Assembly: GCF_016862555.1 (NCBI RefSeq)
Contig: NZ_BONE01000002.1
Coordinates: 62,001-126,000 of the forward strand
Source of the DNA: Asanoa siamensis
GTDB taxonomy: Bacteria > Actinomycetota > Actinomycetes > Mycobacteriales > Micromonosporaceae
Direction of reading: 5' to 3'
Length of the DNA stretch: 64,000 nucleotides
Shown here: positions 60,500 to 64,000 of the stretch, in pieces
How the letters are laid out: each line of letters begins with the position of its first letter
Numbering within the stretch: position 1 is the first letter of the stretch
The notes under the pieces: generated by a model
Seen by the model: only the letters and a program-made list of their open reading frames with translations
What the model was told of the DNA's origin: nothing
Database searches by the model: none
Program-made: the position numbers and the translations under genes

Positions 60500-60662
60500 G
60501 AGCGCAGTATCCCCCGATAGGGTGGCGCGGCTGTACCCCGTACCTCTGAATCGATCTTTTGGAATTGATCCTTCGGATGGTGTAACTGGACTGGTACGGC
60601 CGGTAAGGTGTCGGGCGTTGACATGAGGCGTCGCGACGGCGCATCGCATGGGAGGTCGTGAA

Positions 60663-61475
60663 GTGCCGGTCACTGGCCAGCGGGTGGTTCGGCGTGCCCT
60701 GGGGCGACGGCTGACCAAACTGCGTGTCGCCAACGGCAAGTCACGACGCGAGGTCGCCGAGGCCAAGCTCGGCATCTCGGAGCCGACGCTGCACCGCATC
60801 GAGACGGGCAAGGTCCCGGTCACCGGTGCCAACGTGCGCGCGCTGTGCTGGCTCTACGGCGCCGACCAGAGCGTCACGGACGCGCTCGCCGAGCTCGCCC
60901 TCGGCACGTCGCGCGAGGAGTGGTGGGACGGCAGCCCGGTCATCCCCGACTGGTTCAAGCTCTACGTCGGCCTCGAGGCCAGCGCGTCGAAGATCTGCAC
61001 CTACGACGGCGAGATCATCCCGGGTGAGTTGCAGACCGAGCAGTACGCCGTGGCGGTGTTCGGCGCCGAGCAGCCGCGCGACGACGAGGCCGTGCACCGG
61101 CACGTGAAGCTACGGATGCAGCGCCAGCGCGCGCTGCTGGCCCGGGCGCCGCGGCTCGTGACCGTGCTGGGCGAGGGCGCGCTGACCCGGCCGGTCGGCG
61201 GCAAGACCGTCCTCGACGGGCAGATCGAGCACCTGCGCCGCACGGCCAAGCGCGACAACGTCGAGATCCGGGTGCTGCCGTTCACGGTCGGCGCGCACGC
61301 CGCGATGGCCGGCGCGTTCCGCATCCTCGACTTCGACGACCCCGACGATCCCGACGTGGTCTATCTCGAGTCCCACGTGGGCGCCCTCTATCTCGAAGAG
61401 GAACACGAGGTGGCCGAATACCGCCGCGTCTTCGACCTCGTGATGAAGGCATCGGTCGCGCTCGAGAACTTCTAA
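60663..61475 (+). CDS. HTH regulator with DUF5753 domain (second locus)
   Basis: 270 residues. Helix-turn-helix at about residues 8-60 (SRREVAEAKLGISEPTLHRI), then DUF5753 (WFKLYVGLEASASKICTYDG, IIPGELQTEQYAVAV, IRVLPFTVGAHAAMAGAF). GTG 60663 has GGGAGG 7 bases upstream and is preferred over ATG 60648. It is followed by a methyltransferase gene, with a short dyad between them, and a DUF397 gene converges from the other side. Confidence 0.88.
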   Translation: MPVTGQRVVRRALGRRLTKLRVANGKSRREVAEAKLGISEPTLHRIETGKVPVTGANVRALCWLYGADQSVTDALAELALGTSREEWWDGSPVIPDWFKLYVGLEASASKICTYDGEIIPGELQTEQYAVAVFGAEQPRDDEAVHRHVKLRMQRQRALLARAPRLVTVLGEGALTRPVGGKTVLDGQIEHLRRTAKRDNVEIRVLPFTVGAHAAMAGAFRILDFDDPDDPDVVYLESHVGALYLEEEHEVAEYRRVFDLVMKASVALENF

Positions 61476-61494
61476 CCCCTGGGGCGACATCAGG

Positions 61495-61517
61495 GGTCCA
61501 CTCGTGCATAGTGGACC
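61495..61517. promoter_or_regulatory. 8-bp dyad before the methyltransferase gene
   Basis: GGTCCACT (61495-61502) and AGTGGACC (61510-61517) flank a 7-base centre in the 78-base gap between the HTH and methyltransferase genes. It may be a binding site for the HTH protein. A 6-bp repeat, ACCCCT/AGGGGT, overlaps its left side. Confidence 0.45.
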
Positions 61518-61553
61518 TTGACAGTTGTCGACCTTGAACCCTGGGGAGGGCTC

Positions 61554-62360
61554 GTGGCTGGTGTCGCGAACGACAAGCCGGCGACCGCGGCGCGCATCTA
61601 CGACTACCACCTCGGTGGCACGCACAACTTCCCGGCCGACCGCGCCGCGGCGCAGGCGATCACCGAGATGTTCCCGTTCGTGCCGCTGCTGGCCCGCAAC
61701 AACCGGGCGTTCCTGGGCCGGGCCGTGCGCTACCTGGCGAGCCAGGGCATCACGCAATTCATCGACGTCGGCTCCGGCATCCCGACCGAGGGCAACGTCC
61801 ACGAGATCGCCCAGGAGATCGTCTCCGAGGCCCGCGTCGTCTACGTCGACATCGACCCGATCGCCGTCTCGGAGAGCCTGGACCTGTTGGCCGGCAACGA
61901 CAACGCGACCGCGATCCGGGCCGACCTGCGGGACCCGCAGGCCATTCTCGACAACGCCCAGCTCCGGAAGATCATCGACTTCGACCAGCCGGTCGGGCTG
62001 CTGATGGTGGCGGTGCTGCACTTCGTCGCCGACGACGCCGACGCGAGCCGCTCGGTGACCGAGTTGCTGCGGCCGCTGGTGCCCGGCAGCCACCTCGTCA
62101 TCTCGCACGGCTCCGCCGAGGGCATGCAGCGCGACCTGACCAACCTCGACAGTGCGCAGGACGTCTACAAGCGCGACACGGCCACGCCGTTCGTGCTGCG
62201 CGACCGCGCTCAGGTGGGTTCCTACTTCGAGGGTCTCGACCTGGTCGAGCCCGGCGTCGTCTGGCTGCCCGAGTGGCGTCCGGCCGCCGGCGACCCGCAG
62301 GACTTCACCGACCGGCCGACCGAGAGCGGTGGCCTCTGCGCCGTGGGCGTGGTGCGTTAG
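61554..62360 (+). CDS. SAM-dependent methyltransferase (DUF574 type)
   Basis: 268 residues. ARIYDYHLGGTHNFPADR at the N-terminus and FIDVGSGIPTEGNVHEIAQ (motif I, about residue 70) are the signature of the actinobacterial DUF574 methyltransferases; VVYVDIDPIAV is motif II. The substrate is unknown. These genes often sit near HTH-DUF5753/DUF397 pairs. GTG 61554 with GGGGAGGG upstream is chosen over TTG 61518. The last two bases of its TAG stop lie in the MITE-like element that follows. Confidence 0.88.
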   Translation: MAGVANDKPATAARIYDYHLGGTHNFPADRAAAQAITEMFPFVPLLARNNRAFLGRAVRYLASQGITQFIDVGSGIPTEGNVHEIAQEIVSEARVVYVDIDPIAVSESLDLLAGNDNATAIRADLRDPQAILDNAQLRKIIDFDQPVGLLMVAVLHFVADDADASRSVTELLRPLVPGSHLVISHGSAEGMQRDLTNLDSAQDVYKRDTATPFVLRDRAQVGSYFEGLDLVEPGVVWLPEWRPAAGDPQDFTDRPTESGGLCAVGVVR

Positions 62361-62522
62361 GGCCTGTCCTGCCGATCAACGCGGCCTGCGACGGGCCCAG
62401 CCGCCGCCTGGCGGCGTCCCGGGATCACCGAGATACAACACCGGTATCCCGGCAATCCCGGGCCACCACCAGACGACGCCTGGACTCCGTCTCGGCTCAC
62501 GCTGATCGGCAGGACAGGCCCT
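62359..62522. mobile_element. MITE-like element with 20-bp perfect terminal inverted repeats
   Basis: Bases 62359-62378 and 62503-62522 are exact inverted copies (AGGGCCTGTCCTGCCGATCA and complement) enclosing 124 bases without a gene. The size and lack of coding fit a miniature inverted-repeat transposable element moved by a transposase elsewhere. No clear target duplication is seen (flanks GCGTT and TGTCG). No second copy is in this window. Confidence 0.72.
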
Positions 62523-62539
62523 TGTCGCTCGAAACGTTC

Positions 62540-62580
62540 GCGCCGGGCCGGTTTCCACCGGCCCGGCGCTTTGTCTTTGT
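62540..62580 (+). terminator. Strong intrinsic terminator
   Basis: A perfect 13-bp stem (62540-62552 with 62557-62569), a TTCC loop and the T-rich tail TTTGTCTTTGT. It points with the methyltransferase gene, whose stop is 180 bases away because the MITE-like element lies between. It also separates that gene from the convergent DUF397 gene. Confidence 0.85.
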
Positions 62581-62588
62581 GGGGCTGC

Positions 62589-62798
62589 TCAGTCGGTCAG
62601 GAGGCCGTCGAACTCACCGCGCTTGGCTCCGAAGAGGAACGAGTCCCATTCCTCGGTGGTGAACCGCACCAGGCCACCTGAGCGGTTCTTGCTGTTGCGC
62701 ACCTCGATCCAACCGTCGTCGTGGCGGCGCGCTTCCACGCAGCTGCCACCGTTGCCCGTCGAGCGGCTGGACATGATCCATCCCGTGCTGTCCGGCAT
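62589..62798 (-). CDS. DUF397-domain protein (second locus)
   Basis: 69 residues: GGSCVEARRHDDGWIEVRNS and RFTTEEWDSFLFGAKRGEFD are the DUF397 pattern. ATG 62798 has AGAAGGGA 8 bases upstream. Probable partner of the HTH-DUF5753 protein at 60663, although it lies on the other strand and beyond the methyltransferase gene. Confidence 0.88.
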   Translation of the reverse strand: MPDSTGWIMSSRSTGNGGSCVEARRHDDGWIEVRNSKNRSGGLVRFTTEEWDSFLFGAKRGEFDGLLTD

Positions 62799-63180
62799 GG
62801 GGTTGTCCCTTCTGGTCATGTGACGTGGAAACTGGCGCCAGCCATGGTTTCCGGCGAACCGAACACATCGGACACCCGCCCGGCCAGAATCCAAAAGTTG
62901 CTCTCGGTAGTCGAAGATCGGCACCGTGTGCCTATTTCGAGCTTCCATGGCAGCACTTGCTCCTGGTAGAGACCGATATTGGGCGTACGGCCTGCGGCTT
63001 GCTTCTTTCACCATGAAACCGTGGCGTACATAGCGTAACTGAAACTCGCGCCGATGGATGACCTCAGGATGCCAAAGATCGCCGTGAAATCTTGCACGCC
63101 GATCAGCTGGCTGCGATGCTCATCCACACAACCCCTCCCGCGAGCCCCCCAAGCACAGAACCGCGACGGAGATGATCCAC
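62799..63180. other. Gap of lower GC, no gene seen
   Basis: 382 bases. It should contain the promoters of the DUF397 gene and of the small gene at 63181. A 10-bp palindrome CTGGCGCCAG lies near 62833. The open frames through it lack coding bias and ribosome-binding sites. Confidence 0.45.
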
Positions 63181-63453
63181 ATGGCCGCGCCGCTGCTCGA
63201 TCCCTACCTCCGCACGGAACCCGCGACTGTCCCGAACGCCGGCTTCCAGCCGGGCAGCTGGGTCTGGGTGCACACATTGGGCAGTTGGCGACCCGGGATC
63301 GTGCTGCACTCCTCGCCGCACGCGGCGACCGTCCGCTACCGGCCGGCCCAGGGGCGCGGCACCAGCGTCGACACCGTGACGACCCACTCGCTGGCCGCGC
63401 GCAAGGACGAGGACCCGCTCCTCGACGCCGCGCCGCTCGGCGCCCCGCACTGA
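63181..63453 (+). CDS. Small protein of unknown function
   Basis: 90 residues from ATG 63181 (GGAG 9 bases upstream; ATG 63172 would sit on the GGAG). The middle, PGSWVWVHTLGSWRPGIVLH, then ATVRYRP, suggests a small SH3-like beta barrel. No family recognised. It precedes the large nucleotidyltransferase gene by 73 bases and may be co-transcribed. Confidence 0.65.
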   Translation: MAAPLLDPYLRTEPATVPNAGFQPGSWVWVHTLGSWRPGIVLHSSPHAATVRYRPAQGRGTSVDTVTTHSLAARKDEDPLLDAAPLGAPH

Positions 63454-63526
63454 CCACACCTTCGTCCACAATGGATTAGATGCGCCGGGGCGCGCGAAGG
63501 TTGCCTCAACGGGGAAGATTTTCTCA

Positions 63527-64000
63527 GTGTCCGTCCTGCTCATGGGTGTCATCGGGTCCACCGCCTACGGCCTGGCGGGCCCGCACTCCGACGTCGACCG
63601 GCTGGGCGTCTTCGCGGTGCCGACGGCCGAGCTGCACGGCCTCGAGCGGCCCGCCGAGAGCACGGTGAGCCACGAGCCCGACGTGACGCTGCACGAGGCG
63701 GCCAAGTTCTGCCGGCTGGCGCTGGCCGGCAACCCGACCGTCACCGAGCTGCTCTGGCTGCCGGACCGCCTCTACGAGACGCGCGCGCCGCTGGGCGACG
63801 AGCTGATCGCCCTGCGCCACGCCTTCCTCTCCGCCCGGCGCGTCCGCGAGGCCTACCTCGGCTACGCGACCAAACAGTTCCGCCTGCTGGCCAACCGCAC
63901 CGGCGACTACGACCCCCGCGTTGCCAAGCACGCCCGGCACCTGATGCGCCTGTGCCACCAGGGGCTGCACACCTACCGCACCGGCGAGGTCCGGGTCGAG
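63527..64000 (+). CDS. Nucleotidyltransferase-domain protein (3' end outside window)
   Basis: 158 residues visible from GTG 63527, with GGGGAAG about 10 bases upstream. VLLMGVIGSTAYGLAGPHSD, then VDRLGVFAVP, is the GS-x-SDxD NTase core of the YcgL/COG3541 type, followed by the helical region AAKFCRLALAGNPTVTELLW and VREAYLGYATKQFRLL. These proteins are found widely, often near phages or RNA repair genes, and their acceptor is not known. The frame is open to the window edge. Confidence 0.8.
   Translation, partial: MSVLLMGVIGSTAYGLAGPHSDVDRLGVFAVPTAELHGLERPAESTVSHEPDVTLHEAAKFCRLALAGNPTVTELLWLPDRLYETRAPLGDELIALRHAFLSARRVREAYLGYATKQFRLLANRTGDYDPRVAKHARHLMRLCHQGLHTYRTGEVRVE

Follow-up and report, generated by a model that had tools for sequence, protein, structure and literature searches.

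We believe with considerable confidence that the feature at positions 62360-62521 of the window (the whole 64-kb stretch of DNA that was analysed) is a non-autonomous miniature element of the IS5 family, IS427-type, which probably duplicates TA on insertion and remakes the stop codon that it hits. It belongs to a dispersed MITE family of Asanoa and other Micromonosporaceae, and its place at a stop codon is a common trait of that family, not a quirk of the window copy. This assessment draws on a repeated family, empty sites, an IS with like ends, an enrichment at stop codons, an unchanged C-terminus and end changes that are mostly matched; the window copy was presumably mobilised in trans, with duplication of TA. 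Much more tentatively, we propose that transposition copies one end of the element onto the other, that the ends of about 19 bp are thereby replaced pairwise at several times the rate of the core, and that one conserved core can change over among IS5-family transposases whose ends and stop targets differ (TA/TAG and TNA/TGA); taken as a whole, this second proposal may well turn out to be wrong.

The features concerned are the following, in coordinates of the window.

60648-61475, plus strand: HTH-DUF5753 regulator (open reading frame, domain match)
61518-62360, plus strand: S-adenosyl methyltransferase (PF04672; open reading frame, domain match), ending in a TAG that the element completes, its start codon being uncertain
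62358-62359, no strand: left TA of the presumed target duplication, forming the TAG stop with G62360 (from the TA flanks of the genus copies)
62359-62378, no strand: left end, 20 bp, perfect inverted repeat, 19/20 to both ends of IS L235
62360-62521, no strand: mobile element proper, 162 bp, IS5/IS427-type MITE (inverted repeat; 15 places in its own genome; missing in four orthologues)
62384-62497, plus strand: core, conserved and imperfectly palindromic (alignments; 112 bp identical to L105 of another species)
62397-62411, plus strand: core direct repeat 1, CCAGCCGCCGCCTGG (sequence)
62432-62448, plus strand: hairpin tip GATAC-AACACCG-GTATC, strongly conserved (alignments)
62469-62483, plus strand: core direct repeat 2, CCAGACGACGCCTGG (sequence)
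62503-62522, no strand: right end, 20 bp, perfect inverted repeat, 19/20 to both ends of IS L235
62522-62523, no strand: place of the right TA, reading TT in the window copy (sequence against the family pattern)
62540-62569, plus strand: intrinsic-terminator-like hairpin with 13-bp perfect arms, a similar one being present in three of four element-free orthologues
62589-63014, minus strand: DUF397 gene, convergent (domain match); a mechanical open reading frame whose true start is probably shorter

The earlier note described 164 bp bounded by perfect 20-bp inverted repeats, and this is exact: the first 20 bases of 62359-62522 are the reverse complement of the last 20. It is the sole perfect inverted repeat in the window whose arms measure at least 18 bp and stand no more than 200 bp apart (with the same limit on the gap there are two at arms of at least 16 bp, and four at 14 bp or more). 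These 164 bp consist of the 162-bp mobile part and the adjoining A and T. They contain no transposase gene, and the open reading frames that run across them are mechanical only. The same note let the element supply both the A and the G of the methyltransferase's stop codon. The TAG is indeed found at 62358-62360, but only its G is certainly owned by the element; the A is probably half of a TA target duplication, because most copies in the genus have a flanking TA. By a loose test TA stands on at least one side of 93 of 98 copies (on both sides in 56, on the left only in 21, on the right only in 16, on neither in 5), and the window copy has TA on its left and TT on its right.

A BLAST search with the 164 bases, which the earlier note had suggested, returned multiple dispersed copies: matches at 15 places in the element's own genome, fragments included, and in 22 of 61 genomes, among them all six of the genus Asanoa, each with 14-26 matches (both strands counted). 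A covariance model built from ten of the own copies has matches in 19 of 37 genomes. A 23-base string from the core occurs in 111 stretches of a species-level genome collection, and the 80 of these listed come from Asanoa, Micromonospora, Rugosimonospora, Virgisporangium, Longispora, Catenuloplanes, Verrucosispora, Micromonosporaceae strain KJ-029, a Micromonosporaceae MAG and one Streptomyces. Together with the empty orthologous sites and the IS5-family elements of like ends in congeners, these copies bear out the description of the element as MITE-like. The genus counts that follow are based on the fetched part of the covariance-model matches, with 98 full or nearly full copies for the stop codons and 85 copies of exactly 172 aligned bases for the pairs. 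Fragments and deleted copies were left out (e.g. L007, L010-L012, L015, L091-L094, L103, L112, L126, L127, L132, L353, L380, L383-L385). One of them, L093:1061-1152, is an internally deleted copy of 92 bp with perfect ends, and is possibly still mobile.

At the window locus, four genus genomes, G001-G004, have orthologues of the methyltransferase (81-88% identical). All four lack the element and stop at the same codon position as the window gene, but with TGA; the residue before it is Arg in G001, G002 and G004 and Pro in G003. The sixth genus genome, G005, has a best match of 73% and was left out of the orthologue comparison. After the orthologue stop there is a hairpin, which resembles that of the window in three genomes (G001, G002, G004) and is of another kind in G003; all four element-free loci have the DUF397 gene in its expected place. 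The window element is a real insertion, which swapped the stop codon and made the protein neither longer nor shorter, since the orthologues without it stop at the same codon. Literally, then, the protein does now end at the element, but it did not acquire a changed end. The strong hairpin that the earlier note called a terminator is there at 62540, and a terminator-like hairpin is older than the insertion, because element-free orthologues carry one; insertion between the last sense codon and this hairpin was the right reading. The HTH-DUF5753/DUF397 setting is also as described, with the regulator upstream of the methyltransferase and the DUF397 gene downstream. The competing idea of a structured RNA or terminator that stays at a fixed position and has no other copies falls, given that copies exist and that presence or absence differs among species at this same locus. 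As a separate observation, the orthologous locus of A. ishikariensis (L058) holds, about 60 bp past the methyltransferase stop, a 16-base remnant, TTAGGGCCTGTCCTAG, which coincides with the stop of the neighbouring DUF397 gene; the alignment has CTCAG there in A. hainanensis (L057). To judge from these letters, the family has apparently visited this locus twice, and the stub left behind again gives TAG.

Concerning the target, the commonest pair of flanks among the genus copies is TTAG on the left with CTAG on the right (18 copies), followed by CTAG with CTAG (13). As TTAG...CTAG is the commonest pair, we favour a duplication of TA over one of four bases, and a four-base YTAR duplication is disfavoured on the same ground. 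Insertion with zero duplication was raised by empty sites with a gap of zero, but the added length (164 = 162 + TA) suits TA. Such sites, reading CT^AG, are found in all five orthologues of the L134 locus, in two of five for L119 and in three of four for L122; the site of L120 is empty in four genomes and reads GGCTAGACG. Elsewhere the empty relatives have TGA (4/4 for L001, 4/5 for L118, 4/4 for L135), and under a YTAR target either a change of stop before the insertion or later decay of the flank must be assumed for them. Searches for empty sites of L085, L125 and L113 found none, L114 had no orthologous match, and junctions are ambiguous at several loci (e.g. L086, L087, L088, L105, L107, L108, L110, L111).

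Some details of the flanks may be recorded here. At L134, L122, L116 and L001 the base before the TA of the left flank is T, while the empty relatives have C, a shift from CTAG or CTGA to TTAG. The copies L009:1474-1645 (in G000) and L120:1023-1194 (in G005) occupy the same site with different end classes; both are preceded by GGCTT, the four empties having GGCTA, an extra change that the two sites share. L008:1474-1644 (in G000) and L102:1085-1256 (in G002) likewise share one orthologous site, with different classes and in opposite orientation.

All six genus genomes have matches to PF13340 (DUF4096), and several of these genes lie within elements of about 0.9-1.0 kb that have MITE-type ends and CTAG or TA borders. 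The best candidate for a partner is IS L235 in G005, 930 bp counting the CTAG at each side, with PF13340 and PF01609 in two overlapping open reading frames, both of which exceed the NCBIfam cut-off for IS5 (NF033580). Its ends agree with those of the window element at 19 of 20 positions on each side and with those of the MITE copy L125 at 20 of 20. The search of the own draft genome found no IS with exactly the 20-bp ends of the window element, such as the earlier note proposed to look for; the nearest one found is L235 of the congener, with its single mismatch. In the own genome, an end-like site (L018, two mismatches) lies near a PF13340 gene (L236), and no paired second end was found for it. 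The ends of IS L241, L243 and L255 resemble other MITE end classes, and in L246, L253 and L255 the left and right ends of the IS differ at position 4. L235 has the IS5/IS427 traits, a DDE transposase in two overlapping frames and CTAG at both sides. We take the partner IS to be of the IS427 group, the profile itself placing it above the IS5 cut-off. The group name leans on an excerpt of PMC4133298. Derivation of the core from an IS was considered and rejected: the core of L001 has no BLAST match to the IS loci, the whole L001 element has matches of 20-29 bp only, nearly all at the IS ends, and the weak matches of 20-67 bp obtained with L134 and L370 are unconvincing.

To describe the relation to genes, the 180 bases beside each side of the 98 copies were scored with the codon frequencies of the window's own genes. 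A coding frame runs towards the element on 84 of the 196 sides, and its stop is made at the junction in 68 of the 84; a separate count gives 68 junction stops and one frame ending exactly there, with TAG in 59 of the 68. At least one gene is ended at the junction by 55 of the 98 copies, and two convergent genes by 13. The background, scored in the same way, comprises 464 kb (the window and a further 20 stretches, each of 20 kb, taken from G003 and G005) and the sites in it that lie outside family copies; leaving out the sites in two partial copies and in the window copy changed its YTAR count from 54/297 to 52/293. Against these 52 of 293 YTAR sites at a stop, the 55 of 98 give a Fisher p of 1.5e-12, and against CTAG sites (37 of 145 at a stop) a p of 2e-6; among the CTAG sites that no coding frame runs through, 37 of 126 are at a stop. 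The excess over the CTAG background is real but moderate. Choice of target together with loss of harmful insertions may suffice for it, because TA followed by the first G of the element is always TAG. Outside the genus, 30 copies of the TA class have a stop at the junction on 13 of 18 gene-facing sides. Family copies stand next to genes in both orientations.

In our opinion, the events were most probably as follows. An IS5/DUF4096 transposase would act on the ends of about 20 bp and insert the element at YTAR, most often CTAG, with duplication of the TA. Many of the harmless CTAG sites in these GC-rich genomes are stop codons, including CTAG common to two convergent genes. The duplicated TA and the first G of the element then remake TAG on one side or both, and the insertion would be tolerated; at the window locus, the methyltransferase received another stop codon and its protein stayed unaltered. 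If so, this is a clear case of a near-harmless DNA parasite, one that hits genes at their stop codons and restores these, on both strands at once where genes converge.

The ends are not the same throughout the family. Strain KJ-029 and some Micromonospora carry the same core with ends AGAGACTGTCGGGAAACC (class E), and a 1026-bp IS5-family element in KJ-029 has class-E ends with one mismatch in 18. This second class duplicates TNA, often a TGA stop: a perfect 3-bp duplication borders 9 of 12 class-E copies (TGA/TGA in five, TCA/TCA in four), and of 7 gene-facing sides, 6 have a gene that ends on the duplicated TGA. Three of the copies, L452, L502 and L544, have a common flank at contig ends and are perhaps not independent; without them the counts are 6/9 for duplications and 5/5 for stops. 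One core thus occurs with two or more IS5-type end classes, which differ in the stop codon that they use. There are, besides, elements related by their core with other ends, e.g. AAGAGGTCCTAACTC, TAGTGCGGTGTCCAGG and GAGGGTGTTTGAGA, carried by Longispora L451, L510 and L483, by L445, L481 and L473, by L498 and L434, and by L406-L432 of G040; these are possibly further end classes with other targets.

Within the genus the two ends change together, and the core does not follow this rule. At mirror positions 4-19 of the 85 copies, 1321 of 1360 cells are Watson-Crick pairs and 2 are G-U, each position showing two to four types of pair. Changes at paired positions were counted on a nearest-neighbour tree with edges of at most 12 differences, and the counts are not dated events. 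On this tree the ratio of matched to single changes is 40:3 at positions 1-10, 27:12 at 11-19, 2:32 at 20-25, 4:20 at 26-40, 0:24 at 41-60 and 0:33 at 61-75, which gives 67 matched and 15 single changes for the outer 19 bp or so against none matched and 57 single at positions 41-75. On a tree built from the core alone, with edges of at most 3 core differences, the ends show 100 matched changes, 24 single and 1 other; in 2000 trials with shuffling the matched changes averaged 8.8 and never exceeded 19. Single comparisons illustrate the same: the window copy and L105 (G003) are identical over 112 bp of core and their ends differ by two matched and no single changes, and L125 differs from L110 by one core base and seven matched end pairs. 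Per site, the ends change about 6 times (edges of at most 8 core differences) to 20 times (edges of at most 1) as fast as the core, the latter figure being inflated, as its edges were picked for small core distance. In 89 copies from outside the genus, for which the end register that gave the best complementarity was used, a choice that leans towards pairing, positions 1-17 have 178 matched, 56 single and 20 other changes, and positions 18-24 have 32, 62 and 36 (edges of at most 20 differences); G-U accounts for 12 of 1513 end pairs. The rarity of G-U and the limit at position 19-20 point to the ends as such, i.e. to transposition, as the seat of the pairing.

Resident copies allow some comparison. 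Four of these 89 copies (L455, L472, L490 and L497) are one orthologous insertion in four Micromonospora species; they have 0-4 differences overall at a usable flank identity of 93-99%, and their outer 19+19 bases are unchanged. At positions 4-20, the orthologous copies L135 and L336 differ by one matched end change and by no single one; the remaining seven differences between them lie further in and occur at about the rate of the flanks (94-96% identical). It is therefore not evident that copies which stay in place undergo the fast paired change, and this fits a link to transposition without proving it.

We consider it most likely that one end would be copied onto the other around transposition, whether by fold-back, through an end-to-end junction or by TIR-TIR conversion, and that further spread would be limited to copies whose matched ends a resident transposase accepts. 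Several other explanations have to be weighed against this. In the first, the transposase would be a filter and nothing would be copied: only identical-ended copies move, and shifts in IS specificity select new pairs. MITE end classes do resemble the ends of different IS of the genus (L235, L241, L243, L255), and the second class matches another IS5 element in KJ-029. However, each step would need two independent mutations, and recognition alone may not demand pairing, because the IS with unlike ends at position 4 (L246, L253, L255) seemingly tolerate the mismatch, whereas the MITEs are paired there in 83 of 85 copies. We find this account doubtful, though it deserves a serious hearing.

It is also rather unlikely, in our opinion, that the end pairs are merely old marks of lineages whose cores were homogenised by recombination or horizontal spread, with no special process at the ends. 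Cores 0-1 mismatch apart do occur with different ends, within genomes and between them, resident ends can be stable, and a portion of PMC3004938 describes IS copies, and likewise TIRs, that recombine with one another. Nevertheless, this account requires that the tracts of conversion end close to position 19-20 at either side of the element, and that they do so in many copies and in several genera, and the good pairing of the old ends would still need a reason.

Correction of the whole hairpin (as a quasipalindrome) during replication of a resident copy, unrelated to transposition, seems improbable. The L135/L336 pair with its one matched change is what it would predict, but it should be at least as strong near the tip, and matched changes nearly end at 19-20; the paired positions of the core change singly, and the four-species Micromonospora set shows no change in its outer bases. 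It is disfavoured by the limit at 19-20, as is selection on RNA, which the near absence of G-U also speaks against. A conserved structured RNA or bidirectional terminator at gene ends, kept complementary by such selection, we regard as very improbable: its predicted hairpin is very stable, copies are often at gene 3' ends and compensatory pairs are plentiful, but G-U pairs, the usual intermediates, are nearly missing inside and outside the genus, the core, which is the inner stem, has no covariation, presence varies between species at the same locus, copies lie beside genes in both orientations, and Rfam returned eight weak matches for 61400-63200, none at gathering score.

Part of this picture is already known, as far as the excerpts cited here go: bacterial MITEs with TA ends, the liking of IS5 for CTAG, and an IS that takes its stop from a TA target. 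RUP of Streptococcus pneumoniae, Correia (NEMIS) and ERIC appear in an excerpt of PMC2229807 as bacterial MITEs with TA at the termini, the ends of RUP matching a resident IS630. Like the window family, as described there, they are short, multi-copy, inverted-repeat elements with TA termini; the window family differs in its IS5-family partner, its preference for stop codons, its actinomycete hosts and ends that vary in matched pairs round a constant core. A section of PMC4133298 describes the IS427 group of the IS5 family, with a two-ORF transposase and duplication of TA on insertion, and ISPsp10, whose stop codon is taken from the TA target; that section names two ISs, and by our own reading the IS5/IS427 member is ISPsp10. 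The window element differs from ISPsp10/IS427, so described, in having no transposase. IS5 of E. coli is reported in part of PMC5493358 to use PyTAPu, most commonly CTAG, and to duplicate four bases; the window family is alike in its CTAG target, but a duplication of TA fits it better. REPINs of Pseudomonas, according to a passage of PMC3116915, are non-autonomous hairpins with compensatory changes, in which the ends are conserved and the spacer varies. The window family, set against that passage, has compensating ends and a core that does not compensate; its ends vary and its core is conserved. For ISWpi1 of Wolbachia, PMC3004938 states in the portion cited above that TIR-TIR gene conversion can make two ends identical; that case concerns a few inverted IS copies, whereas here the pattern is family-wide in a 162-bp element. 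Among the matches listed from the open-access literature, as excerpted there, no account was found of the family, of its stop-codon habit or of paired change of MITE ends.

The paired changes are an indication, in numbers, that a miniature transposon's two ends evolve non-independently, and they make directly testable how ends stay compatible with changing transposases. The family is a convenient system, with its length of 162 bp, single-contig genomes and many near-identical copies, and the four-species Micromonospora insertion is a ready set for timing resident change. Finally, in the window itself, an RlaP-like (PF10127) gene of nucleotidyltransferase type lies at 63524-64000 and runs off the window end.
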